A stretch of 64,000 nt of DNA from Notolepis coatsorum (Eukaryota > Chordata > Actinopteri > Aulopiformes > Paralepididae). The stretch is from positions 25,272,871-25,336,870 of the forward strand of contig OZ020601.1 of assembly GCA_963971535.1 (NCBI GenBank). The letters are read 5' to 3'. A program made the position numbers and the translations under genes. The notes beneath the pieces are model-generated. The model saw only the letters and a program-made list of their open reading frames with translations. It ran no database searches and was not told the DNA's origin. Each line of letters starts with the position of its first letter. Position 1 is the stretch's first letter. Below are positions 19,491 to 60,234 of this stretch, one piece after another.

Positions 19491-19523
<33 letters not shown>

Positions 19524-20004: not shown

Positions 20005-20976
20005 GGTGAGAGAGTATAGGGGTGAGAGAGTATAGGGGTGAGATAGTGTATGGGTGAGGTGGTGTAGGAGTGAGAGTGTAGGAGTGAGAGAGTGTAGGGG
20101 TGAGAGTGTAGGTGTGAGAGAGTGTAGGGGTGAGGTGATGTAGGGGTGAGAGTGTAGGAGTGAGAGAGTGGTAGGGGTGAGGTGATGTGGGGTGAGAGTG
20201 TGTATGGGTGAGGTGATGAGGGGTGAGGTGATGTAGGGGTGAGAGTGTAGGAGTGAAGAGTGTAGGGGTGAGATAGTGTAGGGGTGAGGTGATGAGGGGT
20301 GAGAGTGTAGGAGTGAGAGAGTGTAGGAGTGAGAGAGTGTAGGGGTGAGATAGTGTAGGGTGAGGTGGTGTAGGGGTGAGATAGTGTAGGGGTGAGATAG
20401 TGTAGGGGTGAGGAGTGTAGGGTGAGGTGATGTAGGGGTGAGAGAGTAGGAGTGAGAGAGTGTAGGGGTGAGATAGTGTAGGGGTGAGGTGATGTAGGGG
20501 TGAGAGTGTAGGAGTGAGAGAGTGTAGGGGTGAGATATGTAGGGGTGAGTGATGTAGGGGTGAGAGTGTAGGAGTGAGAGAGTGTAGGGGTGAGATAGTG
20601 TAGGGGTGAGGTGATGTAGGGGTGAGATAGTGTAGGGGTGAGATAGTGTAGGGGTGAGGTGATGTAGGGGTGAGAGAGTGTAGGGGTGAGGTGGTGTAGG
20701 GGTGATAGTGTAGGAGTGAGAGTGTAGGGGTGAGGTGGTGTAGGGGTGAGGTGGTGTAGGGGTGATAGTGTAGGAGTGAGGTGGTGTAGGAGTGAGATTG
20801 TAGGAGTGAGGTGGTGGGGGTGAGGTGGTGTAGGGGTGAGGTGTGTAGGAGTGAGGTGGTGTAGGAGTGAGGTGTGTAGGAGTGAGGTGGTGTAGGGGTG
20901 AGGTGATGTAGGGGTGAGAGAGTGTAGGGGTGAGGTGGTGTAGGAGTGAGGTGGTGTAGGGGTGAGGTGATGTAGG
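20005..20976. repeat. GTAGGGGTGAG minisatellite, copy 1 (gap-truncated)
   Basis: Units of about 16-18 bases built from GTGTAGGGGTGAGAGA, GTGTAGGGGTGAGGTG and GTAGGAGTGAG; the end runs into the gap. This copy has more single-base indels than the other, breaking its frames. Confidence 0.93.
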
Positions 20977-21176
20977 NNNNNNNNNNNNNNNNNNNNNNNN
21001 NNNNNNNNNNNNNNNNNNNNNNNNNNNNNNNNNNNNNNNNNNNNNNNNNNNNNNNNNNNNNNNNNNNNNNNNNNNNNNNNNNNNNNNNNNNNNNNNNNNN
21101 NNNNNNNNNNNNNNNNNNNNNNNNNNNNNNNNNNNNNNNNNNNNNNNNNNNNNNNNNNNNNNNNNNNNNNNNNNNN
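20977..21176. other. Assembly gap, 200 N
   Basis: Exactly 200 unknown bases, a placeholder length. It sits in the minisatellite between the two duplication copies. Confidence 0.99.
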
Positions 21177-23594: not shown

Positions 23595-23692
23595 CCCCAC
23601 ACTATGAGGCTATGCTAAATTACAGGTAATCTCTCAGTTTTGTGCGTGGGCTGAACGAACAACATCCGGCCCTTTGCGCAAGTTATCACTTC

Positions 23693-24905
23693 TCACTTCT
23701 CTCTATCTCTGTATATCTCACTTCTCACTTCTCTCTATCTCTGTATATCTCACTTATCTCTACTTATATCTCTATATATCTCACTTATCTATATCTCTGT
23801 ATATCTCACTTCTCTCTATCTCTGTATATCTCACTTCTCTCTATATCTGTATATCTCACTTATCTCTACTTCTATCTCTATATATCTCACTTATCTCTAT
23901 CTCTGTATATCTCACTTCTCACTTCTCTATCTCTGTATATCTCACTTCTCTCTACATATCTCACTTCTCTCTATCTCTGTATATCTCACTTCTCTCTATC
24001 TCTATATATCTCACTTCTCTCTACCTCTATATATCTCACTTCTCTCTATCTCTGTATATCTCACTTATCTCTACTTCTATCTCTATATATCTCACTTCTC
24101 TCTATCTCTGTATATCTCACTTATCTCTACTTCTATCTCTATATATCTCACTTATCTCTATCTCTGTATATCTCACTTCTCTCTATCTCTGTATATCTCA
24201 CTTCTCTATATCTCTGTATATCTCACTTCTCTCTATCTTTGTATATCTCACTTCTCTCTATCTCTGTATATCTCACTTCTCTCTATCTCTGTATATCTCA
24301 CTTCTCTCTATCTTTGTATATCTCACTTCTCTCTATCTCTGTATATCTCACTTCTCTCTATCTCTGTATATCTCACTTCTCTCTATCTCTGTATATCTCA
24401 CTTCTCTCTATCTCTATATATCTCACTTCTCTCTACTTCTATCTCTATATATCTCACTTCTCTCTATCTCTGTATATATCACTTCTCTCCATCTCTATAT
24501 ATCTCACTTCTCTCTATCTCTGTATATCTCACTTCTCTCTATCTCTGTATATCTCACTTCTCTCTATCTCTGTATATCTCACTTCTCTCTATCTCTATAT
24601 ATCTCACTTCTCTCTATCTCTATATATCTCACTTCTCTCTATCTCTATATATCTCACTTCTCTCTATATCTGTTTGTTTGTTTGTTTGTTTATTAACACA
24701 GTTAAACAGAAGTAAAAACAATACATAATAAGTTCTCTCTATCTCTCACTTCTCTCTATCTCTGTATAGCTCACTTCTCTCTACCTCTATCTCTATATAT
24801 CTCACTTCTCTCTATCTCTGTATATCTCACTTCTCTCTACCTCTATCTCTGTATATCTCACTTCTCTCTATCTCTGTATATCTCACTTCTCTCTACCTCT
24901 ATCCA
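23693..24905. repeat. 25-bp pyrimidine-rich minisatellite, copy 2
   Basis: Same unit as 18200-19245. A short TTTG-tailed insertion near 24666-24732 (TTATTAACACAGTTAAACAG) interrupts it. Confidence 0.93.
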
Positions 24906-25144
24906 TCTCACCAGGAAGACAGCTGTCATTATCGTTTTATTATAAACTGTCTGATCAGCAACATTTTTCCCGGCATATTTAATTTTTTTCTCTCTTCTTG
25001 TTTCTTTCCTTCCTCCCCTCTTAATTCTCATCATGATTCTCCTCCATATCTCGCTGGTTGTTATTCCCTCTCTTTCCCCCAGTTTGCAAAGGACCTCTCC
25101 TTTCATCCTCGAGAAGGGCTTTAATTCAAAGTGTGATGTTGAAT

Positions 25145-25147
<3 letters not shown>

Positions 25148-25219
<72 letters not shown>
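25148..25219. repeat. (GA)n microsatellite
   Basis: Pure GA repeat; its partner at 19489 is interrupted. Confidence 0.93.
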
Positions 25220-25222
<3 letters not shown>

Positions 25223-25298
25223 TAGTGGTGGCAGCAGCAGCAACGTCCGGGTGTCAATCAATCTGGTGCGCGAGAGGCAGCGAAGGGCCCTGTGACTG

Positions 25299-25324
25299 GG
25301 GGGGGGGGGGGGGGGGGGGGGGGG
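25299..25324. repeat. Poly-G run
   Basis: About 25 G bases; only a short G run in the other copy (19664-19672). Confidence 0.9.
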
Positions 25325-25656
25325 CGGTGTTTGATCTGTGTCGTTCAAAGGCAGAGCAGCAGGAAGGACCATCACAGACCATTTCCCTCTCGCCACTCTG
25401 ACAGAGAGCATCACAGGCAGGTTAACACACACCTTACTAACACCTTTTACCCCTTTACTGTCCTCCTTTTGGTCTCTCCTTCTGTCTGCTTAGATCAAAC
25501 CATGCTCGCCCACAGAGAGAGAGATAGATGATGAGAGAGAAATAAGAGATGAGAGAGAGAGTGAGGGGAGAGAGAGAGAAATAAGAGATGAGAGAGAGAG
25601 ATGGAGGGAGAGAGCACTTTGGAACACAAACAGGCCTTGTCTTGTCTGCTGAGCAT

Positions 25657-27900
25657 GGGTGAGAGAGTATAGGGGTGAGAGAGTATAGGGGTGAGATAGT
25701 GTATGGGTGAGGTGGTGTAGGAGTGAGAGTGTAGGAGTGAGAGAGTGTAGGGGTGAGAGTGTAGGAGTGAGAGAGTGTAGGGGTGAGGTGATGTAGGGGT
25801 GAGAGTGTAGGAGTGAGAGAGTGTAGGGGTGAGGTGATGTAGGGGTGAGAGTGTGTATGGGTGAGAGTGTAGGAGTGAGAGAGTGTAGGGGTGAGATAGT
25901 GTAGGGGTGAGGTGATGTAGGGGTGAGAGTGTAGGAGTGAGAGAGTGTAGGGGTGAGATAGTGTAGGGGTGAGGTGATGTAGGGGTGAGATAGTGTAGGG
26001 GTGAGATAGTGTAGGGGTGAGAGAGTGTAGGGGTGAGGTGATGTAGGGGTGAGATAGTGTAGGGGTGAGATAGTGTAGGGGTGAGAGAGTGTAGGGGTGA
26101 GGTGATGTAGGGGTGAGAGAGTAGGAGTGAGAGAGTGTAGGGGTGAGATAGTGTAGGGGTGAGGTGATGTAGGGGTGAGAGTGTAGGAGTGAGAGAGTGT
26201 AGGGGTGAGATAGTGTAGGGGTGAGGTGATGTAGGGGTGAGGTGATGTAGGGGTGAGAGTGTAGGAGTGAGAGAGTGTAGGGGTGAGATAGTGTAGGGGT
26301 GAGGTGATGTAGGGGTGAGATAGTGTAGGGGTGAGATAGTGTAGGGGTGAGAGAGTGTAGGGGTGAGGTGATGTAGGGGTGAGAGAGTGTAGGGGTGATA
26401 GTGTAGGAGTGAGGTGGTGTAGGGGTGATAGTGTAGGAGTGAGGTGGTGTAGGAGTGAGAGTGTAGGAGTGAGGTGGTGTAGGAGTGAGAGTGTAGGAGT
26501 GAGGTGGTGTAGGAGTGAGAGTGTAGGAGTGAGGTGGTGTAGGAGTGAGGTGGTGTAGGGGTGAGGTGGTGTGGGGGTGAGAGAGTGTAGGAGTGAGGTG
26601 ATGTAGGAGTGAGAGTGTAGGGGTGAGGTGGTGTAGGGGTGAGAGAGTGTAGGAGTGAGGTGGTGTAGGGGTGAGAGAGTGTAGGAGTGAGGTGGTGTAG
26701 GGGTGAGAGAGTAGGGGTGAGGTGGTGTAGGGGTGAGGTGATGTAGGAGTGAGAGAGTGTAGGAGTGAGGTGGTGTAGGGGTGAGAGAGTGTAGGAGTGA
26801 GGTGGTGTAGGGGTGAGAGAGTGTAGGGGTGAGGTGGTGTAGGAGTGAGGTGATGTAGGGGTGAGAGAGTGTAGGGGTGAGAGAGTGTAGGGGTGAGAGA
26901 GTGTAGGGGTGAGGTGGTGTAGGGGTGAGAGAGTGTAGGGGTGAGAGAGTGTAGGGGTGAGAGAGTGTAGGGGTGAGGTGGTGTAGGGGTGAGGTGGTGT
27001 AGGGGTGAGAGAGTGTAGGGGTGAGGTGGTGTAGGGGTGAGGTGGTGTAGGGGTGAGGTGATGTAGGGGTGAGAGAGTGTAGGGGTGAGAGAGTGTAGGG
27101 GTGAGAGAGTGTAGGGGTGAGGTGGTGTAGGGGTGAGGTGGTGTAGGGGTGAGAGAGTGTAGGGGTGAGGTGGTGTAGGGGTGAGGTGGTGTAGGGGTGA
27201 GAGAGTGTAGGGGTGAGAGAGTGTAGGGGTGAGAGAGTATAGGGGTGAGGTGGTGTAGGGGTGAGAGAGTAGGAGTGAGGTGGTGTAGGAGTGAGGTGGT
27301 GTGGGGGTGAGGTGGTGTAGGAGTGAGAGTGTAGGAGTGAGAGTGTAGGAGTGAGGTGGTGTGGGGGTGAGAGTGTAGGGGTGAGGTGGTGTAGGGGTGA
27401 GGTGGTGTAGGAGTGAGAGTGTAGGGGTGAGAGTGTAGGGGTGAGGTGGTGTAGGGGTGAGAGTGTAGGGGTGAGGTGGTGTAGGGGTGAGGTGGTGTAG
27501 GGGTGAGGTGGTGTAGGGGTGAGGTGGTGTAGGGGTGAGGTGGTGTAGGGGTGAGGTGGTGTAGGGGTGAGAGTGTAGGGGTGAGGTGGTGTAGGGGTGA
27601 GGTGGTGTAGGGGTGAGAGTGTAGGGGTGAGAGTGTAGGGGTGAGGTGGTGTAGGGGTGAGAGTGTAGGGGTGAGGTGGTGTAGGGGTGAGAGTGTAGGG
27701 GTGAGGTGGTGTAGGGGTGAGAGTGTAGGGGTGAGGTGGTGTAGGGGTGAGAGTGTAGGGGTGAGGTGGTGTAGGGGTGAGAGTGTAGGGGTGAGGTGGT
27801 ATAGGGGTGAGAGTGTAGGGGTGAGGTGGTGTAGGGGTGAGAGTGCAGGAGTGAGGTGGTGGGGGGTGAGAGTGTAGGAGTGAGGTGGTGTAGGAGTGAG
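25657..27900. repeat. GTAGGGGTGAG minisatellite, copy 2 (2.2 kb)
   Basis: About 130 units of roughly 16-18 bases; the right third is a regular alternation of GAGAGTGTAGGGGT and GAGGTGGTGTAGGGGT. Frames of over 800 codons on the minus strand are repeat artefacts rich in His, Thr, Pro and Ser. Confidence 0.95.
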
Positions 27901-29319: not shown

Positions 29320-29468
29320 TTATAACACTTTTATCCAAAGCGCTTTACAACGTATGCCTCACATTCACCCATTCACTCACACACCGACAGCGGAGGCGCA
29401 AGGTGCCGACCTGCTCATCAGAATCAAACCAGGAACCTTCTGATTAGGAGACGACCGCTCAGGATCGA
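29320..29468 (-). mobile_element. tRNA-SINE body fragment
   Basis: Contains TTATCCAAAGCGCTTTACAAC, TCACCCATTCACTCACACACC and CCTGCTCATCAGAATC, the reverse complement of the SINE body at 47489-47750. It abuts the left end of the DIRS-like element. Confidence 0.75.
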
Positions 29469-29474
29469 TGTCAT

Positions 29475-29690
29475 GTTATATATCATACTTGGCTATCGTG
29501 TCTCGCTCTGCCAATGAGATATCCTCTTATCTCCACGCACCTAGCGTGCATGCGAAACAAACAAATACACCCACTTGCACGTCTAATACAGCCACTCCCA
29601 TGCGTCTCCCTATATGACGCCAGAAATGGTCACGCTCGACCTTCCTCATTTCGTTTCCAACGTGGAAGTAGCAGTGCACTCCGTGAACTA
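29475..29690 (+). repeat. DIRS left inverted terminal repeat
   Basis: From GTTATATATCATACTTGGC through TCTCGCTCTGCCAATGAG and CCTCTTATCTCCACGCACC to CCATGCGTCTCCCTATATG and GGTCACGCTCGACC. The same blocks occur inverted at 34440-34578 and 35851-35935. Confidence 0.88.
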
Positions 29691-31780
29691 GTTGTTATGA
29701 AATGTAGGGAGAAATTACACAATGTTGGGTATTCGCCAGAAGTTCACCAGCCCCCGGAACCTTTTCGGCACATCCCAACAGCGCAGCGGTCCGGTCCTGA
29801 GTTTTCCTCGTCTCGTGACAGCGGACCGAGGGACATCGCACAACGGTTAGTAGTCGAGCTAAGTCGTGCACAGGTAGGGCCTGCGCTATCAGGCATTGAT
29901 ACTGGCATGGGTAATACGGCTCGTTGTCTCGTGAGACGACCGAGTGATGTATTGGCGTGGGGGGTGGGATATTTGGGAAAACATGACTCTCTTTTGGATG
30001 TTTTCCAAGTATCCTAGCGCGCAGCTACTGCTAATGTTACAATGTTGGGACGCCGTTCCCATGTTCCCCGCCGAGGGCTGTCTTTACTGTCTTCCCTCCT
30101 CTTAACCATTCATGCTGACGGTCAATCGGTGTCTATGTTGGGGGTTTAACGGAGGCTTGTTTACCATTTACATGGGTGGATGGGCTGAGGCTCAGGGCAG
30201 GTGTGCTTTTTGTGAATCTATGAATTGAAGATGGGGGTCCCTGATGTGGACGGGACTGGCGTTTTTCTCTGGTCTGCTTCCCCTTGACAGTTGTGTGTAT
30301 TGGGCTAGCCCATTCTGCAATGTGTTAATAGAGTTTTCGTTCATTCATTCATTCATTTTATCCCTTCATGGGTGCACACCGCAGTGGAGGTTGTTGCATG
30401 CCTACTAGTGAGGCAGTGCTTCACTAGTAGTAGACTTTGGTCTGCAGCCACCACTGGTGTTCCGTGCTTAGTGAAGCAGGTGGCATCAGTCCTTTGCCCT
30501 GACATGGTGGAACGGTGTCCTGCCCGGCCGACGCCATGAGGCGAGGTGGCTGGTGGGCTGATGAAGCCTATACCGCCACGGTACAGAATTTAGTAGCGAC
30601 TGGCAACATTGCTCAATTGGCTGTTTTTTCTGTCAAAAATGGTGTTGGGTGGTGGGGCCTTAGGGCCAGCCGACGTCAAAACCATCGCGCGAGGTTTTGA
30701 GGTTATTCAGCTTTTGACCTAACCGCAAGCTATAACGGCAGGGAGGGCTAGGAGGGCCAGGGGCGCGGGCGGTATTTGACCTGGGCCCCACACCGTGCAG
30801 CCAGAGGTGAGAGCACGGCCTCGCCAGCGGCGGTGGCGAGGCCCCCGACCGGCGGCCATGTTTCCCCCGCCTGAGATACCGTGGGCACAAAGAAAACAGG
30901 TCGACAGCCTCGGCGGCCCGAGGGATTGGCTACATTAGATGAGCACGCCCTAAAAAAACGTTGCCGTCTAGCTGTGTCTAGCACGCTCTCCGGTTACTCC
31001 CCCCCCGCTACGCTACGGGACACATGGCTCTGATTTGTTCCCTTTGGCTGCGGGCTGCATGCTTCCAGTGAAGCACAAGCGGCCCCACGTTTCGCTTCTC
31101 ATGGGGACAGGGGCTGACACCCAGTTGCTAGCTAGGCCTGGGTCTGCCTGTGAGAATGCTGTGCTGTCAAGCGGCTCCCACACCACAAGTTCTGCATCTG
31201 TGTTTGGTGGGCCTGGTGTTGTGTCTGTCGACGAAAAAGGTTGTCAGCGGGGGAACTCGAGGCCCAGGAGGTTGCAGCGTGAGTTCCCCCAGCCCGCCCT
31301 CGCCAGGCCGGGTATCACGTTAGTGTCTCCCCCGACCGGAAGACCGGTGGTGGTCAGTCAGGCACGTGTGGTTTGGGTGGTAGTAATATCACTACAGGGC
31401 TACGGTGTGTAGGAACCCACCCTATCGGGCAGTGTGGGGACCGCACGCCTTGCATGTCAAGCTGCAGAGCAGGCTATCCTCAGCAGTCCATGCCGGGAAG
31501 ATGCTCAGTGGGGGAGCTTATGTCACCAAAGGTGATGGCCGCTCCCCCCATATCAGACCGCCCCTTCTGTCGGGGTCCCCCCCTTGGGTGTGATTGCCTC
31601 GTTGGTAGAGTCAGGGTGCGATATCCCGGCTCCGCGAGACACCCTGCTCGCGCGGTTGGCAAGACCAGGGTTGACAACGCACAGCGGGAGGGACCGGGCC
31701 ACATATCTACGATTCCTAGCGGACCAGCGGCAGTTGGCGGCGGGGGCGCTTTGGAATTTTACCACGTATGGCTGCAGTGG
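29691..31780 (+). pseudogene. DIRS gag-like/5' coding region, decayed
   Basis: The region between the left terminal repeat and the RT, where DIRS elements normally carry a gag-like frame. GC content is higher than the neighbours. Several 60-170 codon frames exist (for example 31035-31412), but none runs through and no domain is recognised; the assignment is by position. Confidence 0.5.
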
Positions 31781-32936
31781 TAGCCATATGTCGGTGTGGA
31801 TGGAGAGAACGCTGAGGGCGGCGCTTGTGTTACAGTTTACACACCCCCGCCCTCCGTGTTTGGGTTTGGTACAGACTCTATTATCAGAGTCCGCGGCAGT
31901 GACAGCCCTGGCCGAGGAGATTCGTTCTCTGGCGGCGAAGCAGGCCGTCGTCGTGGTCCAATGGGAAGACGCGATGAGCCGGCGTTTCCTCCCGATATTC
32001 TCTGGTGCCCGAGAAATCGGGGGGGGGGGGGGGTGTCAGACCCATACTGGACCTGTCCCATGGAAGGTTCAGAATGTTGACCGTCACCCACCTGTTAGGC
32101 GCTGTCAGGTGGGGGACTGGTTCACCTCCATAGACCTGTAGGATGCGTATTCACATCCCGATCTTCCCTCCTAGGACATACCTACGCGTCCTTTGCAGGG
32201 CTTAGCGTACGAGTACCAGAGGCTGCCGTTCGGCTACTCTCTGGCTCCTCGCATCTTCACCAAGTGCGTGGAGACCGCGCTGGGGTCTCTGCGACGTCGG
32301 GGGATACGAATTTTATTCTACCCTGGACAACGTTCTGGTCCTCGGCCGGTAAGAGAAGATCGCCAGGTCTCATACCAGGCAGGTGGTGCAATTCCTCACC
32401 AGCCTGGGTTTTGCTGTAGACTGGAAGTAGAGTACTCCTCTTCCCAGTCAACGGGTGGAGTACTTGGGCTTATTCTAAGCTCAAGGTCTATATGGGCATC
32501 ACTCTCAGAGCGGCGGCGGGTGTTCTCGGCGCGCTCGGGAGGTTCCGTCCTTGGACGGTTACAGCACTGTCCGTGATGCGCCTGCTCGGTATGATGCTCA
32601 CTCTGTGGTCCCTCTTGGCCTCCTCTTCATTCTTCACTCTTCAGTCTTCACCGACGCCTCCCTCACGGCAGACCATGCTGCCCGGTCTGCACTACATTCA
32701 ATGTGTTGGAATTGAAGGCAGTCCTTCTGGTCCTCAAATGGCTCGGCCACCTTGTGGTGGGCAAGCATGTTTTGATCAGGACGGACAACACGCTCCCCCC
32801 ATCTGCACCGAGCGGCGGTCGAGCTCTGGCTATGGGCGTTCTCCATCTGCGCAGCCTGAGGGCTCTCCACATCCCCGGCAGGGAGAATGTGGGTGCAGAT
32901 GTGATGTCGCGGGGCGGTCCTCACCCTGACAAGTGG
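31781..32936 (+). pseudogene. DIRS reverse transcriptase and RNase H, frameshifted
   Basis: Pieces in order: the RT finger region (31796-32090, including IRSLAAKQAV); GDWFTSIDL then a TAG where DIRS has DAY (about 32113-32155); LAYEYQRLPFGYSLAPRIF at 32203-32260, the conserved LPFG...L.PR block; a TLDNVLVLG stretch in another frame for the active-site YxDD region; and RNase H tail pieces LELKAVLLVLKWL, KHVLIRTDNT and LHIPGRENVGADVMSRGG (32703-32930). At least three frame changes and one stop disrupt it. The poly-G at 32020-32032 probably caused one shift. Confidence 0.88.
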
Positions 32937-34112
32937 GGACTACGTCCAGACATAGTCAGACAGGTCTGGGACCGATTCCGTGGCCGCCCGGGATTCTGTA
33001 CGCATTCCCCCCCATACACTTGATAGCTCAGCTGTTGGGGCGGGTACGTCAGGAGCGCAGGACTTTGATCCTGGTCGTGCCGGGCCAAGGCTCAGCTGTG
33101 TGGTTCCCGGCCATGATTCAGCTCTTGGTGGCCCCGCCGTGGCCTGTTCCGTGGTCACCGCGGGCCCTCTCAGGCACGCGGAACTCTGTTCTGCCTCCTG
33201 TTCTGGGGCAGCCTCTAGGCTTGGCTGCTGAAAGAGTGAATCTGGTGGGGATGCGTCTTGACTCTTCTGTGGTTAACGCCATCTGGTACGCGCACGCTCC
33301 GTCCACTACCGTGGCTTGCCCTGGGATGTGGCGTATGGTCGAGAGTGGGGGCAGAACATTGTTCAGCCACCCTCTCGTGAAACGTTTCCTGCTTGGCGCT
33401 CGGCGTCTCAAGCCTGTGTAATGTTCTCTGTCTCCGAGGTGGGACCTCCGACTGGTCCTGGGCCGGTTGTCAGAGGCCCCGGCTGTCATTGAGACCGCGT
33501 TCCTTTTGGCCATCACCTCCGCTAAGCGTGTGGGTGAGCTGTGTGCTCTCTCTGTGCGGCCTGAGTGCCTGTCTATTCGGCCGATAGCGGTGCTACTCTG
33601 AGGCCTAATCCAGTCTTCGTGCCAAAGAATATCCGGAGCTCTTTTCGCTCCAGGGATGTTGTGGTTCAGGCGTTTCATCCACCTCCTCACGCTAGTGGGT
33701 TGGAGGCGAGCATTCCCCTGTCGTGTCCTGGCCGTGCACTGAGGTTTTACCTTAGTTGGACGCAGGATCTCAGGGCTTCCGATCAACTGTTTGTTTGTTA
33801 CGGTGGACCTCGCACGGGTAAGGCGCTGTCCAAGCAGCGCCTGTGACATTGGTTGTGCGAAGGCATTGCCTTTGCTACACGTTGGCTGGACAGGTCCCCC
33901 CCGGGGGCGTCAGGGCGCACTCCACTGGTGGAGTGGCGGCCTCTGCTGCCCTGTTAGGGGGGGCCTCGGTGGAGGACATCTGTGCTGCGGCCTCCTGGTC
34001 CTCCCCGGGTCCTTTCGTTAAGTTTTACCTCGTGGACATGACTGGGGGTTCTGTCTCCCAGGCGGTTCTGAGGTCTGGGACCTCTCCTGCGTCCCGCCAT
34101 TTGGTGGGCTAG
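32937..34112 (+). pseudogene. DIRS methyltransferase-like and tyrosine recombinase, broken
   Basis: The segment GILYAFPPIHLIAQLLGRVR (near 32990-33050) and VAPPWPVPW match the region between RNase H and recombinase in DIRS elements. Recombinase pieces follow: NAIWYAHAPSTTVA (N-terminal domain), TSAKRVGELCALSVRPECL (33520-33570; the Arg is the first catalytic Arg), VCYGGPRTGKALSKQRL, and AHSTGGVAAS...ASVEDICAAASWSSPGPFVKFYL (33918-34030). In the HxxR box the expected Arg is Gly (HSTG). FYL holds the likely nucleophilic Tyr. Frameshifts near 33420, 33590 and 33845 make it inactive. Confidence 0.88.
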
Positions 34113-42833: not shown

Positions 42834-44636
42834 CGATTTCATAGGCTTTAAGGAGGAGGTCTCTACTGTGTTGCTCATACAGTTGGCTTCAAGGAGGAGG
42901 TCTCTACTGTGTTACTCATACAGTTGGCTTTAAGGAGGAGGTCTCTACTGTGTTACTCATACAGTTGGCTTTAAGGAGGAGGTCTCTACTGTGTTGCTCA
43001 TACAGTTGGCTTCAAGGAGGAGGTCTCTACTGTGTTACTCATACAGTTGGCTTTAAGGAGGAGGTCTCTACTGTGTTGCTCATACAGTTGGCTTTAAGGA
43101 GGAGGTCTCTACTGTGTTGCTCATACAGTTGGCTTTAAGGAGGAGGTCTCTACTGTGTTACTGATACAGTTGGCTTTAAGGAGGAGGTCTCTACTGTGTT
43201 GCTCATACAGTTGGCTTTAAGGAGGAGGTCTCTACTGTGTTACTGATACAGTTGGCTTTAAGGAGGAGGTCTCTACTGTGTTGCTCATACAGTTGGCTTT
43301 AAGGAGGAGGTCTCTACTGTGTTACTGATACAGTTTGCTTTAAGGAGGAGGTCTCTACTGTGTTACTCATACAGTTGGTTTTAAGGAGGAGGTCTCTACT
43401 GTGTTACTCATACAGTTGGCTTTAAGGAGGAGGTCTCTACTGTGTTACTCATACAGTTGGCTTCAAGGAGGAGGTCTCTACTGTGTTACTCATACAGTTG
43501 GCTTTAAGGAGGAGGTCTCTACTGTGTTGCTCATACAGTTGGCTTCAAGGAGGAGGTCTCTACTGTGTTACTCATACAGTTGGCTTTAAGGAGGAGGTCT
43601 CTACTGTGTTACTCATAGGCTTCAAGGAGGAGGTCTCTACTGTGTTACTCATACAGTTGGTTTTAAGGAGGAGGTCTCTACTGTGTTACTCATACAGTTG
43701 GCTTTAAGGAGGAGGTCTCTACTGTGTTGCTCATACAGTTGGCTTTAAGGAGGAGGTCTCTACTGTGTTACTCATACAGTTGGTTTTAAGGAGGAGGTCT
43801 CTACTGTGTTACTCATACAGTTGGCTTTAAGGAGGAGGTCTCTACTGTGTTGCTCATACAGTTGGCTTTAAGTAGGAGGTCTCTACTGTGTTACTCATAC
43901 AGTTGGTTTTAAGGAGGAGGTCTCTACTGTGTTGCTCATACAGTTGGCTTTAAGGAGGAGGTCTCTACTGTGTTACTCATACAGTTGGTTTTAAGGAGGA
44001 GGTCTCTACTGTGTTACTCATACAGTTGGCTTTAAGGAGGAGGTCTCTACTGTGTTGCTCATACAGTTGGCTTTAAGGAGGAGGTCTCTACTGTGTTACT
44101 CATACAGTTGGTTTTAAGGAGGAGGTCTCTACTGTGTTGCTCATACAGTTGGCTTTAAGGAGGAGGTCTCTACTGTGTTACTCATACAGTTGGTTTTAAG
44201 GAGGAGGTCTCTACTGTGTTACTCATACAGTTGGCTTTAAGGAGGAGGTCTCTACTGTGTTGCTCATACAGTTGGCTTTAAGGAGGAGGTCTCTACTGTG
44301 TTACTCATACAGTTGGTTTTAAGGAGGAGGTCTCTACTGTGTTGCTCATACAGTTGGCTTTAAGGAGGAGGTCTCTACTGTGTTACTCATACAGTTGGTT
44401 TTAAGGAGGAGGTCTCTACTGTGTTGCTCATACAGTTGGTTTTAAGGAGGAGGTCTCTACTGTGTTACTGATACAGTTGGCTTTAAGGAGGAGGTCTCTA
44501 CTGTGTTACTCATACAGTTGGCTTTAAGGAGGAGGTCTCTACTGTGTTACTCATACAGTTGGTTTTAAGGAGGAGGTCTCTACTGTGTTACTGATACAGT
44601 TGGCTTTAAGGAGGAGGTCTCTACTGTGTTACTCAT
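42834..44636. repeat. 41-bp minisatellite, left block
   Basis: The unit begins GGCTTTAAGGAGGAGGTCTC, followed by TACTGTGTTACTCATACAGTT; about 44 copies. Variants: TTGCTC, TTACTG, GGTTTTAAGG, GGCTTCAAGG. Some units lack CAGTT and are 36 bp. Confidence 0.97.
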
Positions 44637-45275
44637 TGATTGATTGATTGATTGATTGAAAACTTTATTAACAGATTGCAGAATGGGTACAATACAGTAC
44701 AGCTCAATACACACAATTGTTAAGGGGATGCAGACCAGAGAAAGACTTTCGTCTTGTTTACATCAGGGTCCCCCATTTTCAATTCATCAGGACATATATG
44801 ACATACATGACATACAGATAGTCAGTACTGCTACATCTATACATTTATGACATACCAGATTTGCAAATACAGTACTGTTTGTGATACAGAAGGAGTCAAG
44901 AAAAGGGAGTATATACATTTGACGTAGAAACTGTACATTGGAGGAGGTTGGGTGGGGGGGGTTGGGTACATTGGGATATTGACAACCATACTGGGTAATT
45001 TACATTGGAGGTGGTTGGGGGGGGGGGCACACTGTATAAACAAGCAAAACTGTACATTGAGGGGGGGGGGGGGAGGAGACACTGTATAAACAAACAAAAT
45101 TGTACATTGGACTATTGACAAAACCATACTAGGTAAATGACTGTACATTGGAGGGGGTTGGGTTAGGATATTTACAGGGGCCATTGTTGAATTGCAGTCT
45201 CCCGTAGGTGTCCCTTGAGAGAGGTTTTGAAAGTGGGTAGTGATCCACATTCCTTTACAGCTTTGGGTAGGGCGT
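44637..45275 (-). mobile_element. LINE-like 3' end repeat splitting the minisatellite
   Basis: Starts with (TGAT)n and GAAAACTTTATTAACAG, matching 2309-2800 and 58762-59063, and continues further than those copies (to TTTGGGTAGGGCGT). Flanked by TCAT at 44633-44636 and 45276-45279. The minisatellite resumes in phase on the right. Confidence 0.8.
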
Positions 45276-46514
45276 TCATACAGTTGGCTTTAAGGAGGAG
45301 GTCTCTACTGTGTTACTCATACAGTTGGTTTTAAGGAGGAGGTCTCTACTGTGTTACTGATACAGTTGGCTTTAAGGAGGAGGTCTCTACTGTGTTACTC
45401 ATAGGCTTTAAGGAGGAGGTCTCTACTGTGTTACTGATACAGTTGGCTTTAAGGAGGAGGTCTCTACTGTGTTACTCATAGGCTTTAAGGAGGAGGTCTC
45501 TACTGTGTTACTCATACAGTTGGCTTTAAGGAGGAGGTCTCTACTGTGTTGCTCATACAGTTGGCTTTAAGGAGGAGGTCTCTACTGTGTTACTCATACA
45601 GTTGGTTTTAAGGAGGAGGTCTCTACTGTGTTGCTCATACAGTTGGTTTTAAGGAGGAGGTCTCTACTGTGTTACTGATACAGTTGGCTTTAAGGAGGAG
45701 GTCTCTACTGTGTTACTCATAGGCTTTAAGGAGGAGGTCTCTACTGTGTTACTCATACAGTTGGCTTTAAGGAGGAGGTCTCTACTGTGTTGCTCATACA
45801 GTTGGCTTTAAGGAGGAGGTCTCTACTGTGTTACTCATACAGTTGGCTTTAAGGAGGAGGTCTCTACTGTGTTACTCATACAGTTGGTTTTAAGGAGGAG
45901 GTCTCTACTGTGTTACTCATACAGTTGGCTTTAAGGAGGAGGTCTCTACTGTGTTACTCATACAGTTGGCTTTAAGGAGGAGGTCTCTACTGTGTTACTC
46001 ATACAGTTGGCTTTAAGGAGGAGGTCTCTACTGTGTTACTCATACAGTTGGCTTTAAGGAGGACGTCTCTACTGTGTTACTCATACAGTTGGTTTTAAGG
46101 AGGAGGTCTCTACTGTGTTGCTCATACAGTTGGCTTCAAGGAGGAGGTCTCTACTGTGTTACTCATAGGCTTCAAGGAGGAGGTCTCTACTGTGTTGCTC
46201 ATAGGCTTCAAGGAGGAGGTCTCTACTGTGTTACTCATACAGTTGGCTTTAAGGAGGACGTCTCTACTGTGTTACTCATACAGTTGGTTTTAAGGAGGAG
46301 GTCTCTACTGTGTTGCTCATACAGTTGGCTTCAAGGAGGAGGTCTCTACTGTGTTACTCATAGGCTTCAAGGAGGAGGTCTCTACTGTGTTGCTCATAGG
46401 CTTCAAGGAGGAGGTCTCTACTGTGTTGCTCATAGGCTTCAAGGAGGAGGTCTCTACTGTGTTGCTCATAGGCTTCAAGGAGGAGGTCTCTACTGTGTTA
46501 CTCATAGGCTTTAA
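45276..46514. repeat. 41-bp minisatellite, right block
   Basis: About 31 further units; the 36-bp form dominates from 46160. It ends where the MITE interrupts a unit at its TTAA. Confidence 0.97.
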
Positions 46515-51054: not shown

Positions 51055-51200
51055 CGTGCGGCGCTCCCTCCTGTACTCCCTGTTCAGCCACGACTGCGCT
51101 GCCCAGCGGAGGCTCCCATGTCGTCGTCAAGTTCGCTGAGGACACGACCGTCCCGGGCCTCGTCACGGACAATGATGACACGCCCACGGAGAGGAGGTAA
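51055..51200 (+). pseudogene. LINE reverse transcriptase fragment (Rex1/L2-like)
   Basis: Encodes LLYSLFSHDC, then, after a frame change, GSHVVVKFAEDTTVPGLVTDND. These are the blocks around the RT active site, where non-LTR elements have FADDTTV; here the first Asp is Glu. The next in-frame codons hit TAA at 51198. The following RT block, EEVKTLTWCQDNNLS, is the sequence amplified into the 46-bp array. Remaining LINE sequence resumes at 57290. Confidence 0.85.
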
Positions 51201-54200
51201 AGACACTGACCTGGTGCCAGGACAACAACCTCTCTAGAGGAGGTGAAGACACTGACCTGGTGCCAGGACAACAACATCTCTAGAGGAGGTGAAGACACTG
51301 ACCTGGTGCCAGGACAACAACCTCTCTAGAGGAGGTGAAGACACTGACCTGGTGCCAGGACAACAACCTCTCTAGAGGAGGTGAAGACACTGACCTGGTG
51401 CCAGGACAACAACCTCTCTAGAGGAGGTGAAGACACTGACCTGGTGCCAGGACAACAACCTCTCTAGAGGAGGTGAAGACACTGACCTGGTGCCAGGACA
51501 ACAACCTCTCTAGAGGAGGTGAAGACACTAACCTGGTGCCAGGACAACAACCTCTCTAGAGGAGGTGAAGACACCTGGTGCCAGGACAACAACCTCTCTA
51601 GAGGAGGTGAAGACACTGACCTGGTGCCAGGACAACAACCTCTCTAGAGGAGGTGAAGACACTGACCTGGTGCCAGGACAACAACCTCTCTGGAGGAGGT
51701 GAAGACACTGACCTGGTGCCAGGACAACAACCTCTCTGGAGGAGGTGAAGACACTGACCTGGTGCCAGGACAACAACCTCTCTAGAGGAGGTGAAGACAC
51801 TGACCTGGTGCCAGGACAACAACCTCTCTAGAGGAGGTGAAGACACTGACCTGGTGCCAGGACAACAACCTCTCTAGAGGAGGTGAAGACACCTGGTGCC
51901 AGGACAACAACCTCTCTGGAGGAGGTGAAGACACTGACCTGGTGCCAGGACAACAACCTCTCTAGAGGAGGTGAAGACACTGACCTGGTGCCAGGACAAC
52001 AACCTCTCTAGAGGAGGTGAAGACACTGACCTGGTGCCAGGACAACAACCTCTCTAGAGGAGGTGAAGACACTGACCTGGTGCCAGGACAACAACCTCTC
52101 TAGAGGAGGTGAAGACACTGACCTGGTGCCAGGACAACAACCTCTCTAGAGGAGGTGAAGACACTGACCTGGTGCCAGGACAACAACCTCTCTAGAGGAG
52201 GTGAAGACACTGACCTGGTGCCAGGACAACAACCTCTCTAGAGGAGGTGAAGACACTGACCTGGTGCCAGGACAACAACCTCTCTAGAGGAGGTGAAGAC
52301 ACCTGGTGCCAGGACAACAACCTCTCTAGAGGAGGTGAAGACACTGACCTGGTGCCAGGACAACAACCTCTCTAGAGGAGGTGAAGACACTGACCTGGTG
52401 CCAGGACAACAACCTCTCTAGAGGAGGTGAAGACACTGACCTGGTGCCAGGACAACAACCTCTCTAGAGGAGGTGAAGACACTGACCTGGTGCCAGGACA
52501 ACAACCTCTCTAGAGGAGGTGAAGACACTGACCTGGTGCCAGGACAACAACCTCTCTAGAGGAGGTGAAGACACTGACCTGGTGCCAGGACAACAACCTC
52601 TCTAGAGGAGGTGAAGACACTAACCTGGTGCCAGGACAACAACCTCTCTAGAGGAGGTGAAGACACTGACCTGGTGCCAGGACAACAACCTCGCTAGAGG
52701 AGGTGAAGACACTGACCTGGTGCCAGGACAACAACCTCTTTAGAGGAGGTGAAGACACTGACCTGGTGCCAGGACAACAACCTCTTTAGAGGAGGTGAAG
52801 ACACTGACCTGGTGCCAGGACAACAACCTCTCTAGAGGAGGTGAAGACACTGACCTGGTGCCAGGACAACAACCTCTCTAGAGGAGGTGAAGACACTGAC
52901 CTGGTGCCAGGACAACAACCTCTCTAGAGGAGGTGAAGACACTGACCTGGTGCCAGGACAACAACCTCTCTAGAGGAGGTGAAGACACTGACCTGGTGCC
53001 AGGACAACAACCTCTCTAGAGGAGGTGAAGACACCTGGTGCCAGGACAACAACCTCTCTGGAGGAGGTGAAGACACTGACCTGGTGCCAGGACAACAACC
53101 TCTCTAGAGGAGGTGAAGACACTGACCTGGTGCCAGGACAACAACCTCTCTAGAGGAGGTGAAGACACTGACCTGGTGCCAGGACAACAACCTCTCTAGA
53201 GGAGGTGAAGACACTGACCTGGTGCCAGGACAACAACCTCTCTAGAGGAGGTGAAGACACTGACCTGGTGCCAGGACAACAACCTCTCTAGAGGAGGTGA
53301 AGACACTGACCTGGTGCCAGGACAACAACCTCTCTAGAGGAGGTGAAGACACTGACCTGGTGCCAGGACAACAACCTCTCTAGAGGAGGTGAAGACACTG
53401 ACCTGGTGCCAGGACAACAACCTCTCTAGAGGAGGTGAAGACACTGACCTGGTGCCAGGACAACAACCTCTCTAGAGGAGGTGAAGACACTGACCTGGTG
53501 CCAGGACAACAACCTCTCTAGAGGAGGTGAAGACACTGACCTGGTGCCAGGACAACAACCTCTCTAGAGGAGGTGAAGACACTGACCTGGTGCCAGGACA
53601 ACAACCTCTCTAGAGGAGGTGAAGACACTGACCTGGTGCCAGGACAACAACCTCTCTAGAGGAGGTGAAGACACTGACCTGGTGCCAGGACAACAACCTC
53701 TCTAGAGGAGGTGAAGACACTGACCTGGTGCCAGGACAACAACCTCTCTAGAGGAGGTGAAGACACTAACCTGGTGCCAGGACAACAACCTCTCTAGAGG
53801 AGGTGAAGACACTGACCTGGTGCCAGAACAACAACCTCGCTAGAGGAGGTGAAGACACTGACCTGGTGCCAGGACAACAACCTCTTTAGAGGAGGTGAAG
53901 ACACTGACCTGGTGCCAGGACAACAACCTCTTTAGAGGAGGTGAAGACACTGACCTGGTGCCAGGACAACAACCTCTCTAGAGGAGGTGAAGACACTGAC
54001 CTGGTGCCAGGACAACAACCTCTCTAGAGGAGGTGAAGACACTGACCTGGTGCCAGGACAACAACCTCTCTAGAGGAGGTGAAGACACTGACCTGGTGCC
54101 AGGACAACAACCTCTCTAGAGGAGGTGAAGACACTGACCTGGTGCCAGGACAACAACCTCTCTAGAGGAGGTGAAGACACCTGGTGCCAGGACAACAACC

Positions 54201-57200
54201 TCTCTGGAGGAGGTGAAGACACTGACCTGGTGCCAGGACAACAACCTCTCTAGAGGAGGTGAAGACACTGACCTGGTGCCAGGACAACAACCTCTCTGGA
54301 GGAGGTGAAGACACTGACCTGGTGCCAGGACAACAACCTCTCTAGAGGAGGTGAAGACACTGACCTGGTGCCAGGACAACAACCTCTCTAGAGGAGGTGA
54401 AGACACTGACCTGGTGCCAGGACAACAACCTCTCTAGAGGAGGTGAAGACACTGACCTGGTGCCAGGACAACAACCTCTCTAGAGGAGGTGAAGACACTG
54501 ACCTGGTGCCAGGACAACAACCTCTCTAGAGGAGGTGAAGACACTCACCTGGTGCCAGGACAACAACCTCTCTAGAGGAGGTGAAGACACTGACCTGGTG
54601 CCAGGACAACAACCTCTCTAGAGGAGGTGAAGACACTGACCTGGTGCCAGGACAACAACCTCTCTAGAGGAGGTGAAGACACCTGGTGCCAGGACAACAA
54701 CCTCTCTAGAGGAGGTGAAGACACTGACCTGGTGCCAGGACAACAACCTCTCTAGAGGAGGTGGAGTTACTGACCTGGTGCCAGGACAACAACCTCTCTA
54801 GAGGAGGTGAAGACACTCACCTGGTGCCAGGACAACAACCTCTCTAGAGGAGGTGAAGACACTGACCTGGTGTCAGGACAACAACCTCTCTAGAGGAGGT
54901 GAAGACACTGACCTGGTGCCAGGACAACAACCTCTCTAGAGGAGGTGAAGACACCTGGTGCCAGGACAACAACCTCTCTAGAGGAGGTGAAGACACTGAC
55001 CTGGTGCCAGGACAACAACCTCTCTAGAGGAGGTGAAGACACTGACCTGGTGCCAGGACAACAACCTCTCTAGAGGAGGTGAAGACACTGACCTGGTGCC
55101 AGGACAACAACCTCTCTAGAGGAGGTGAAGACACTGACCTGGTGCCAGGACAACAACCTCTCTAGAGGAGGTGAAGACACTGACCTGGTGCCAGGACAAC
55201 AACCTCTCTAGAGGAGGTGAAGACACTGACCTGGTGCCAGGACAACAACCTCTCTAGAGGAGGTGAAGACACTGACCTGGTGCCAGGACAACAACCTCTC
55301 TAGAGGAGGTGAAGACACTGACCTGGTGCCAGGACAACAACCTCTCTAGAGGAGGTGAAGACACTGACCTGGTGCCAGGACAACAACCTCTCTAGAGGAG
55401 GTGAAGACACTAACCTGGTGCCAGGACAACAACCTCTCTGGAGGAGGTGAAGACACTGACCTGGTGCCAGGACAACAACCTCTCTAGAGGAGATGAAGAC
55501 ACTGACCTGGTGCCAGGACAACAACCTCTCTAGAGGAGGTGAAGACACTGACCTGGTGCCAGGACAACAACCTCTCTAGAGGAGGTGAAGACACTAACCT
55601 GGTGCCAGGACAACAACCTCTCTGGAGGAGGTGAAGACACTGACCTGGTGCCAGGACAACAACCTCTCTAGAGGAGGTGAAGACACTGACCTGGTGCCAG
55701 GACAACAACCTCTCTAGAGGAGGTGAAGACACTGACCTGGTGCCAGGACAACAACCTCTCTAGAGGAGGTGAAGACACTGACCTGGTGCCAGGACAACAA
55801 CCTCTCTAGAGGAGGTGAAGACACTGACCTGGTGCCAGGACAACAACCTCTCTAGAGGAGGTGAAGACACTGACCTGGTGCCAGGACAACAACCTCTCTA
55901 GAGGAGGTGAAGACACTGACCTGGTGCCAGGACAACAACCTCTCTAGAGGAGGTGAAGACACCTGGTGCCAGGACAACAACCTCTCTAGAGGAGGTGAAG
56001 ACACTGACCTGGTGCCAGGACAACAACCTCTCTAGAGGAGGTGAAGACACCTGGTGCCAGGACAACAACCTCTCTAGAGGAGGTGAAGACACCTGGTGCC
56101 AGGACAACAACCTCTCTAGAGGAGGTGAAGACACTGACCTGGTGCCAGGACAACAACCTCTCTAGAGGAGGTGAAGACACTGACCTGGTGCCAGGACAAC
56201 AACCTCTCTAGAGGAGGTGAAGACACTGACCTGGTGCCAGGACAACAACCTCTCTAGAGGAGGTGAAGACACTGACCTGGTGCCAGGACAACAACCTCTC
56301 TAGAGGAGGTGAAGACACTGACCTGGTGCCAGGACAACAACCTCTCTAGAGGAGGTGAAGACACTGACCTGGTGCCAGGACAACAACCTCTCTAGAGGAG
56401 GTGAAGACACCTGGTGCCAGGACAACAACCTCTCTAGAGGAGGTGAAGACACTCACCTGGTGCCAGGACAACAACCTCTCTAGAGGAGGTGAAGACACCT
56501 GGTGCCAGGACAACAACCTCTCTAGAGGAGGTGAAGACACTGACCTGGTGCCAGGACAACAACCTCTCTAGAGGAGGTGAAGACACTGACCTGGTGCCAG
56601 GACAACAACCTCTCTAGAGGAGGTGAAGACACTGACCTGGTGCCAGGACAACAACCTCTCTAGAGGAGGTGAAGACACTAACCTGGTGCCAGGACAACAA
56701 CCTCTCTAGAGGAGGTGAAGACACTGACCTGGTGCCAGGACAACAACCTCTCTAGAGGAGGTGAAGACACTGACCTGGTGCCAGGACAACAACCTCTCTA
56801 GAGGAGGTGAAGACACCTGGTGCCAGGACAACAACCTCTCTAGAGGAGGTGAAGACACTGACCTGGTGCCAGGACAACAACCTCTCTAGAGGAGGTGAAG
56901 ACACTGACCTGGTGCCAGGACAACAACCTCTCTAGAGGAGGTGAAGACACTGACCTGGTGCCAGGACAACAACCTCTCTAGAGGAGGTGAAGACACTGAC
57001 CTGGTGCCAGGACAACAACCTCTCTGGAGGAGGTGAAGACACTGACCTGGTGCCAGGACAACAACCTCTCTAGAGGAGGTGAAGACACTGACCTGGTGCC
57101 AGGACAACAACCTCTCTAGAGGAGGTGAAGACACTGACCTGGTGCCAGGACAACAACCTCTCTAGAGGAGGTGAAGACACTGACCTGGTGCCAGGACAAC

Positions 57201-57296
57201 AACCTCTCTAGAGGAGGTGAAGACACCTGGTGCCAGGACAACAACCTCTCTGGAGGAGGTGAAGACACTGACCTGGTGCCAGGACAACAACCTCTA
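51192..57296. repeat. 46-bp minisatellite, ~130 copies, derived from LINE RT
   Basis: Unit GAGGAGGTGAAGACACTGAC, CTGGTGCCAGGACAACAACC, TCTCTA. In one frame it reads EEVKTLTWCQDNNLS, the RT segment that follows the FADD block. Because 46 is not a multiple of three, each unit shifts frame. A 42-bp form lacking TGAC recurs, and variants CTGGAGG, CTCGCTAG, CTTTAG and TAACC mark a higher-order repeat of about 1.14 kb. Confidence 0.97.
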
Positions 57297-57398
57297 TGAA
57301 CTTCAGCTAAACTAAAGACTGGACTACAGGAGACAGCAGGGACACCTCCCTATATTGGTGAGGCTGAGGTTAAAAGGGTCACAGAGGACCTCTCCTGG
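57290..57398 (+). pseudogene. LINE RT fragment downstream of the array
   Basis: After the last CAACAACCTC the sequence continues as degraded LINE: near 57370 one frame reads EVKRVTEDLSW, matching the ...ISEDLSW block that follows the same RT region in Rex1/L2 LINEs. It is cut at 57398 by a terminal-inverted-repeat element. Confidence 0.65.
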
Positions 57399-58636
57399 GC
57401 CCTCATTTATCAATGGTGCGTACGCACAGATATGTGCGTAACCCGTGCGTACGATCATTTCTAAGCAAAGTGTGGGACTTATCAATTTGAACTTGTGCTT
57501 GACTTTGTGCGTATATCTACGCACAGCTCGGAGCATGCGTACCTGGCGCCCGGTGGTAGAATATGAAGACTACAACGCGGAAATAAGCTTCTGTGCATTA
57601 GTTTCAACACTTGCGTGTTCTGTATGGCCCGTAATTCATTATAGTTCATTGTAAAATAGCAACAGTAGTGTAATTATGGTCAAACCCCTATAAATAGCAT
57701 TTGGAATAATAGGTCTTTCTCTCGGAATTAATGCAGCATGGTTTATATATAGCGTTATCGGAATATACGGGGTGTACTGACTGCGCTCCGCTTAACTCAA
57801 CTCGTTATTATTTTGCGCACAGACCGCAGAAATACGGGAAAGTTTTTGATTATATTTAAAATGCTTTGCCATAACGTTAAACGAAACAAGTGGAACCCCG
57901 AAGGTGTAAGCAGAATACAAGTCATATGAACACGCACAATATAGTGTTCTTCCCCCTTCCTACTGTATAAGAAAGAATTAAAAACGCATTGCAACGAGAA
58001 CAGAGGTTATTTGTTGAGTTTATGTGTATACAAAACCCTTGCAATAAATGTGTCTTAAATGAATGAAAAGCATACATGCTCTGGATACAGGTAGCATATA
58101 TCGTGTGGGTGATATGCAGGGCTTGACATTGGCACCTGCCCACCCGCCATATGCGGGTAGAATTCCCCTGTGGCGTGTACCTCTGTCATTCTACCCGCCA
58201 CAGAGGCTAGTGGTCTGTCTGTCTGTGTGTATGTGTGTGTGTGTATGCGTGTGTGTTTATGTGTGTGTGTTTAGCGTCTTTTTCTCCCTGGCCATGTGCA
58301 TTCTAAAAAAAAATCTCTGCCTTTGATTGGCTATATCACGTTCATTATGCAAAGACCAGCCCTGATCTGCCTCTGATTGGTTGAATGACGGAATAAACAA
58401 AAAAGCCATGTGAAACCTGAAACCTCTCTTCAAAGTTATTTTCACACTGAGTTGCGTCGTCGCCAATACACATAAGCTGGCGGGCTCGTTGAACACAGCT
58501 GCCTACAACCATCCTTACAGTAATGGCTAGTATTTTCATATCTTAACCAGCGTTGCAACTTGCAAGACGCTTATAATGAAACGTTCCAACGGCGACATTG
58601 TTCAACAATTGATTCAACCTAAAACCTACGCGCTCG

Positions 58637-58642
<6 letters not shown>

Positions 58643-58690
<48 letters not shown>

Positions 58691-58760
58691 TCTCTCCCTC
58701 CCTCTGTCTCTCTCTCTGTCTCTCTGCCTCTCTCTCTGTCTCTCTCCGTCTCTCTCCCTC
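58643..58760. repeat. (CT)n-rich tract
   Basis: Pure CT at 58643-58687, then CT with GTCTCT and CCCT variants. Confidence 0.92.
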
Positions 58761-58761
58761 T

Positions 58762-59063
58762 GATTGATTGATTGAATGAAAACTTTATTAACAGATTGCA
58801 GAATAGGTACAGTACAGTACAGATCAATACATACAATTGTTAAGGGGATGCACACCAGAGAAATACTTTCATCTTGTTTACATCAGGGTCCCCCATTTTC
58901 AATTCATCATAACATATATGACACACACGACATACAGATAGACAGTACTGGTACATCTATACATTTATGACATACCAGATTTGCAAATACAGTACTGTTT
59001 GTGATACAAAAAGTGTCCAGAAAAGAGTGTATATTTGACATAGAAACTGTACATTGGAGTAGG
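58762..59063 (-). mobile_element. LINE-like 3' end repeat, copy 3
   Basis: Same TGATTGATTGA tail and GAAAACTTTATTAACAGATTG body as at 2309 and 44637, nested in the hAT. Confidence 0.75.
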
Positions 59064-59485
59064 TCTCTCATTCATCACGGTGGTGAAAAAAGTTAGTCTG
59101 GAGCCCATTTTCACATGACCATTTTAATAATCACATTATTACCATTGTTGGGTTATGATCGGCGTGTGTGGGGATTTTTGGCTGGTGAAAATGCTGAGTG
59201 GCTAGTGACTTTGGAAAACCACTAGCCACAGTGGCTAGTGAGCCAAAAAGTTAATGTCAAGCCCTGGTGATATGACTTGTATTCTGCTTACATAACTTCG
59301 AAACTCCACCCACAATGTCAAAGCCTTCCAAACATAAATCAAAACGTTCCCGCACTTCTGCAATCTATGCGCAAAACAATAACGAGTTGAGTTCTAACAA
59401 AGAACGTATTACATGCTGGGTAGGCTGATAGAGTAAACTGTAAATAAAATAGCCTATAACATTATAAAGGATAATGGCTATAGCA

Positions 59486-59535
59486 GGGGTTCCCAACCTT
59501 TATTCCCCAGAGCCCCACGATTCCTGGGAGACATA
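59486..59535 (+). mobile_element. Solo hAT-like terminus
   Basis: CAGGGGTTCCCAACCTTTATT followed by CCCCAGAGCCCCAC is a recognisable hAT end; no matching right end found. Confidence 0.45.
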
Positions 59536-60234
59536 ATAGGAATATGATATGATATGATATATTATATATGTGCAAGTTACTGTTGCATAATGTAGGCTAT
59601 GGCGGCTATTATATGTAATTCATATAGGCTACCTAATACCGATAACAAAATAGATTGTATGCCTCTAGTACAAATCATATTAAACCCGGTAGCCAATCGA
59701 ACAAAACTGATTAAAGGCATTCATATTCCAGCATGGTTAGAATGACACACCAACGCCAAACAGTGGTCAACGGTCTTTATTAGTATGTTGAGCTGTCCAG
59801 GCAGAATTGCAGCAATGGTCTTAGGGAGTCGTTGATATCTGACATCACCGTGTACAAGTCCGCCAGCCTTTTATTTATCCCATAACACGGGTTGTGTCTT
59901 CTTGGTTCGACAGCGCCTCAGTGAACAATCTCGCTCGTGGAGTTTCTCATGAGTTCGCTCGGGTTAGTTCATTATTTCACATCCCATGGGGGGTGTTTCA
60001 TTACCATATATGGATAATCATGCACGAGCATTGACGGTAAGAACAAATGGTATTTATCAACACGGAGGAGCGTAGGACCTGTGTACGCACGGTTGATAAA
60101 TCCCAATATTTCTGTGCGTACACACATTCTAAATTCTGTGCTTAAGTACGAAAATAGAACACTTTCTAAGAATTGTTGATAAATGAGGGCCCTGGACACT
60201 GCGTAGGCATGAAACTATAAAAGAAGGAAGGGTC

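Follow-up and report, generated by a model that had tools for sequence, protein, structure and literature searches.

A 46-bp minisatellite derived from LINE reverse transcriptase code and flanked on both sides by remains of the same LINE copy

Introduction

How does a minisatellite begin? At the locus described here the question can be put to the sequence itself, as the start of a minisatellite is readable when the source segment, both of its flanks and single-copy relatives are all found in one genome. The window (the whole stretch of DNA analyzed, 64,000 nucleotides, C46:25272871-25336870 of its own 3.42-Gb genome, which is the genome searched throughout) contains a long tandem array that a preliminary description, made from the sequence, had traced to the reverse transcriptase (RT) gene of a LINE. 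The points to be settled are whether the repeat unit is LINE code, whether it was amplified within one LINE copy, whether this happened at this locus only, and what set the process in motion. A resolved series of this kind is useful because the two classical models of initiation explain only 6% of the human arrays derived from transposable elements (TEs), as given in the accessible part of a genome-wide survey (Ahmed and Liang, 2012; PMC3389668). The features on which the argument turns are the following.

51063..51189, + strand: left LINE flank, RT code through the FADD active-site block (YSLFSHDC..., VVKFAEDTTVPGLVTDND), frameshifted; from blastn and tblastn
51190..57295, + strand: minisatellite array, 120 units of 46 bp and 14 of 42 bp, 134 in all; from TRF, unit parsing and LINE position
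57296..57398, + strand: right LINE flank, RT code past the unit (YIGEAEVKRV...TEDLSW), with small deletions; from alignments and tblastn
57399..60190, no strand assigned: DNA transposon that interrupts the LINE, with GCCCTCATTTATCAA as terminal inverted repeats; from sequence reading, inverted arms inside it and the same ends at other loci

Structure of the array

TRF run on the window reports a repeat of period 46 with 134.0 copies and 97% matches at 51190-57295, and parsing resolves the interval into 120 units of 46 bp and 14 units of 42 bp, all head to tail; the total of 134 units comes from one assembly. The minisatellite of about 6.1 kb and about 130 copies of 46 bp that had been proposed is thus confirmed by both methods. 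As for the proposed span, which began at 51055, the array stands and the start of LINE homology moves to 51063 by alignment. Unit length and copy number (46 bp, 134 copies) agree with the usual dimensions of TE-derived minisatellites, that is, units of 10-100 bp in tens to about 100 copies. Each unit encodes the peptide EEVKTLT-WCQDNNLS in one frame, and since 46 is not a multiple of 3 the peptide shifts frame with every unit. A 25-base core of the unit is matched 134 times with up to 3 mismatches, and not once in 100 shuffles.

The units are very alike: 95 of the 134 parsed units are identical to the consensus, and only 33 substitutions occur among units in the ~6.1 kb of the array (~0.5% from consensus). 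All 14 of the 42-bp units have in common the same 4-bp TGAC deletion. Overall the units carry 14 variant types, the order of which is structured. A block duplication at a lag of 25 units accounts for 6 matches, a value reached at any lag by 6 of 1000 shuffles, and neighbouring variant units are equal in 4 cases as against a shuffle mean of 1.1, with 16 of 1000 shuffles reaching 4. Such an ordering of variants, with a repeated 25-unit block and equal neighbours, is the trace expected from unequal exchange or block duplication.

Origin of the unit in a LINE

When a query of two units was compared with the genome, 92 matches were found among the 30 candidates scored, 63 of them in the array and 29 elsewhere, the latter mostly single copies of 46-49 bp. 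From such sites a panel of LINE copies was assembled, taken as 20 loci of 3 kb and 20 loci of 10 kb with 19 sites common to both (the C2280 site is out and a C9 site added); as the panel was picked by match to the unit, it is not a random sample. A query in which one unit joins the left flank to the right finds an alignment in each of the twenty 10-kb loci, with E values of 7e-15 or better. In two of these, L031 (E 2e-54, 77% over 277 columns) and L038 (E 2e-52), a single blastn HSP runs through both flanks and the unit, spanning from 51063 or 51068 via the unit to about 57381. LINE sequence therefore lies on both sides of the array, joined in one HSP with the unit, and the proposed amplification inside one LINE copy is borne out by the way in which the flanks and one unit align straight through other copies.

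In an alignment of 19 LINE copies (L030, whose LINE is on the other strand in the oriented file, is left out) the unit sits at one place; it thus corresponds to a fixed place in a dispersed TE, with DNA matches at 19 LINE loci. The window unit lacks a codon (mostly AGC) that all 18 copies covering this point possess; L048 begins past it. The preliminary description had recommended a search for single-copy versions at other copies of the LINE, and in 16 of the 19 aligned copies the segment is indeed free of any tandem repeat reported by TRF at a score of 80 or more. It had also named the result that would speak against it, namely that no LINE carries the unit between the two flanking RT blocks; in the window's own genome, LINE copies do carry it there.

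At the protein level the unit corresponds by tblastn to residues 804-820 of an intact open reading frame (ORF) in locus L049, directly after FADDTVVVGL, as was anticipated when the unit was described as the RT code that follows the FADD block. The sequence FAEDTTVPGLVTDND to the left of the array and EVKRVTEDLSW to the right are likewise both present as claimed. The L049 ORF has 1011 codons and contains the Pfam domains RVT_1 (5.2e-29) and Exo_endo_phos (4e-6), so that RT and an upstream endonuclease occur in one ORF as in non-LTR elements of the APE type; this assignment is made on L049, the window copy being a fragment only. Solved structures related to L049 by sequence include the R2 and LINE-1 ORF2 proteins. 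A LINE protein query pieced together from copies gave 147 scored matches among 172,338 first-look candidates, and all 147 are listed in open frames of >270 codons. Searches of Pfam and PDB with the short window flanks by themselves returned no RT; the LINE link consequently rests on the genomic LINE copies and the intact ORF. The element may be of the Rex1/L2 type that the preliminary description named. The transposons of the host genome suggest a ray-finned fish.

State of the flanking LINE copy

The LINE fragment in the window is small, with about 127 bp to the left of the array and 103 bp to the right, where it ends at 57398 because the inverted-repeat DNA transposon begins there. The left flank matches L049 from residue 764 onward (tblastn). 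The right flank matches L050 and the pieced LINE query with E values of 1e-5 to 1e-6, these matches including the last unit, and L049 alone with an E value of 0.07 (tblastn). Relative to the panel majority, the left flank differs at 18 of 128 positions, the right flank at 9 of 105 and the last unit at 3 of 46, and by the Fisher test the divergence of the unit does not differ significantly from that of the flanks (p 0.29 and 0.44). The idea that the unit is better preserved in the array than the flanks was dropped on this ground. Within the panel, which was chosen by the unit, the unit has diverged less (37/942) than the flanks (341/3432). Variation among the units of the array is much smaller than the divergence of the flanks from other LINE copies, and the present growth of the array thus probably took place well after decay of the LINE had begun.

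Other arrays born from the same LINE family

Across the window and the 20 LINE loci TRF finds 97 arrays with a period of 12 or more, and the units of 16 of them match LINE DNA outside arrays, as against 0 of 97 shuffled units. Fifteen of these 16 units lie outside the window, and 14 match two or more LINE loci; the 14 occupy 8 of the 20 loci (L034, L039, L041, L042, L045, L046, L047, L048), and the unit of an array in L043 has a DNA match to a single LINE locus only. Five of the arrays constitute one 30-bp family, since L046 lies 24 kb from L045 and nearly duplicates it. By protein comparison, 11 units outscore all 485 shuffled ones, of which the best reached 27.7 bits; one of the 11 is a 43-bp unit of L034 that has no DNA match. 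A 40-bp array of L047 is weak in both comparisons. An excess of arrays specific to LINE sequence is not claimed: the counts of 15 per 17.1 kb of LINE and 82 per 189.2 kb of other sequence come from an earlier array list that lacked arrays 52, 67 and 75, and five of the 15 are the one duplicated 30-bp family.

The LINE-derived units stem from several positions in ORF2. Because the same LINE family has given rise to arrays at several other ORF2 positions, the window array can be regarded as one outcome of a recurrent process. Over the very RT segment that makes up the window unit, tandem duplications of their own are found in L042 (23 bp x 72), L047 (71 bp x 2.3) and L048 (31 bp x 2.0), so that, together with the window array, at least four duplications of this segment, differing in their boundaries, have taken place. 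The L048 case, at 4963-5025 of the oriented locus, is a direct duplication of the window's RT segment with boundaries other than those in the window.

Some junctions recur across the genome. The 59-bp ORF2 junction has 78 matches at 15 loci, in 11 of which neighbours lie 55-64 bp apart; 17 of the 24 matches to the 52-bp junction are in junction form, at 8 loci, the other 7 being its single-copy left end; and the 30-bp junction has 84 matches at two C21 sites with one each on C23 and C35. Distant arrays with common 52-bp or 59-bp ORF2 junctions are seen at C13:93363420-93363762, C9:139361099-139361952 and C44:96645127-96646103. Junctions common to many loci indicate either repeated birth at hot spots or the spread of dimers by retrotransposition, and both may occur; with the 59-bp and 52-bp series, counting could show whether duplications follow insertion or travel with the element. 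We would tentatively entertain, while thinking it somewhat less than probable, the broader idea that this LINE family has been a serial nursery of minisatellites, with recurrent small duplications at a few spots in ORF2, retrotransposition of some dimers and separate expansion at each locus. If so, arrays seeded by LINEs would make up a real share of the large minisatellite load of this genome and of its size. In the upstream part of L050, a LINE copy lies beside a long open minisatellite that encodes PKIPQNTRKYQ-like peptides.

Birth and growth of the array

The 46-bp junction itself behaves differently in genome-wide counts. A 25-base query across the tandem junction (up to 2 mismatches) has 132 matches on the array strand and 1 on the opposite strand in the genome, and 132 and 0 in the window alone; hence the 132 matches are the array, and the single opposite-strand match lies elsewhere, unplaced. 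A 35-base junction query (up to 3 mismatches), designed to catch the form with the extra codon as well, gives 132 and 0 both in the genome and in the window. A satellite family, with its unit in tandem at many loci, was thus not found, the 46-bp junction occurring here only, bar the one unplaced match of the 25-base query; as far as these searches reach, the array is a single-locus one. By comparison, a 30-mer representing the single-copy form is matched 107 times at dispersed places in the genome when up to 2 mismatches are allowed, and variants shared among them suggest that some belong to related LINE subfamilies.

Taken together, the alignments of flanks and unit, the codon comparison and the junction counts identify the array as a single-locus minisatellite from ORF2 code in one decayed LINE copy. 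The LINE origin of the unit, the fit of both flanks to one copy, the presence of the junction at a single locus (one match unplaced), the low divergence of units beside older flanks and the duplicated 25-unit block are matters of observation. The history that very probably lies behind them is that a 46-bp stretch of RT code in one old LINE copy was duplicated in tandem and afterwards expanded where it lay until there were 134 units. In such a history the code just past the FADD block would have been duplicated once within the LINE fragment, presumably through an error of replication or break repair almost without flanking homology, and slippage, unequal exchange or gene conversion between units would have brought the array to its present size; the present expansion would be recent and neutral.

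Replication or break-repair error is adopted for the initiating step by default. Judged by eye in the alignment, the ancestral direct repeat at the 46-bp junction is 0-1 bp long, and those at the other junctions are ~4 bp (AGGA) for the 59-bp, ~4 bp (CACA) for the 30-bp and ~2 bp for the 23-bp junction; direct repeats of at least 5 bp flanking the unit, as in the Haber-Louis model, were found at none of these four junctions. Birth from a hairpin or palindrome was considered because the ends of the unit resemble an imperfect inverted repeat and because there are 117 TCTAGA sites per 133 junctions; it found no support, the DNA fold energies of unit and LINE contexts being ordinary and no different from those of shuffled sequences (z from -0.4 to -1.3).

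Other histories are conceivable. The first duplication might predate insertion, either already present in the source element or created when reverse transcription jumped between templates, so that only the growth was local. ORF2 junctions shared by many loci (52-bp at 8, 59-bp at 15) fit dimers that travel with the LINE; a 35-base search that allowed up to 3 mismatches placed the 46-bp junction at no other locus (the one shorter match is unplaced), and we consider this course of events unlikely. There is a smaller chance that the copy number is an artefact, the real array being much shorter or longer, given that near-identical units assemble poorly and that a single assembly is at hand. Simple collapse or inflation, however, would not easily produce 14 ordered variant types and a duplicated block of 25 units, and the sole run of Ns in the window, at 20977-21176, is away from the array. 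That the array functions as coding sequence, RNA or structured DNA appears very improbable. The unit does read as a LINE peptide and a weak hairpin can be drawn, but stop-to-stop frames inside the array are at most 105 aa (most of those listed are 45-59 aa), no Rfam family reaches its gathering threshold in the array, and the fold energies are those given above; with neither a long frame nor an RNA family nor an unusual fold found, the array is read as neutral. Chance insertion of an unrelated satellite into the LINE has nothing found in its favour and is contradicted by the alignments, the unit itself being the very stretch of LINE sequence that is missing between the flanks, and is hardly credible.

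Relation to known arrays

Minisatellites derived from TEs, some of them from LINE ORF2, are already known, and the growth in place of a segment of one LINE copy in the window is a well-resolved example. The preliminary description's remark that such arrays are seldom described goes too far: the available portion of a review lists satellites related to LINE ORF2 (PMC9659126), the human survey (likewise in its accessible part) reports 601 L1-derived tandem repeats (PMC3389668), and the present genome contains many of its own. According to the same part of that survey, the human genome has 7,276 TE-derived minisatellites, 23% of its minisatellites; these are mostly single-locus clusters, and in the case of LTR12 arrays have been spread by transposition (PMC3389668). 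As described there, the human arrays likewise expanded where they stand, out of part of a single TE copy. They differ in that many come from Alu or ERVs and comprise few units (means of 2.3-2.4 for Alu; Ahmed and Liang, 2012; PMC3389668). The window array is built of LINE RT code, runs to 134 units and belongs to a different kind of genome.

The satellites named in the available portion of the review, PROsat of Phodopus, Pvc 20 of the harbour seal and HinfI/CR1 of chicken, are likewise tandem DNA that matches LINE ORF2 code (PMC9659126). Unlike these named satellite families, as they are presented there, the array in the window is confined to one locus, has a 46-bp unit and retains LINE sequence on either side. 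Also on record are minisatellites that come from Alu, B1 or LTR sequence (PMC6947457); in the accessible text of that source they too are born within a retroelement, but the source is an LTR or SINE and not RT code. A limited search of the open-access literature, by titles and the openings of abstracts, found no such array in a fish LINE, and peptide words of the unit led to unrelated papers only.

The adjacent transposon and the rest of the window

The DNA transposon that terminates the right flank is bordered by CCTGG on both sides (57394-57398 and 60191-60195), and beyond it only about ten bases resemble the LINE by eye. Its ends (GCCCTCATTYATCAA) abut CCTGG or CCAGG in 7 of 9 other occurrences, counted in the fetched loci L030, L032, L038 and L045, from which the element seems to prefer CCWGG targets. 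Its copy in L032 is inserted at the LINE position that it also occupies in the window, and the L045 copy is inside a LINE-born 30-bp array. The transposon is presumably Harbinger-like.

Tandem repeats of period 12 or more make up 32% of the non-N window, compared with a mean of 17% and a median of 10% in the 20 LINE loci; such a share is high for a vertebrate. At both 18207-20976 and 23691-27900 a 25-bp array is succeeded by a 16-bp one, a repetition that suggests a local duplication; the N gap lies between the two. Another large minisatellite, of 41 bp x 90, is found at 42844-46506, and its match to the LINE is not above noise. Retroelement remnants at 29448-34000 include a weak RVT_1 match (E 0.0023, under the curated cut-off). 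Finally, 7207-7341 weakly matches residues 39-86 of L049 (50% over 48 aa, E 1e-4) and is perhaps another LINE fragment.
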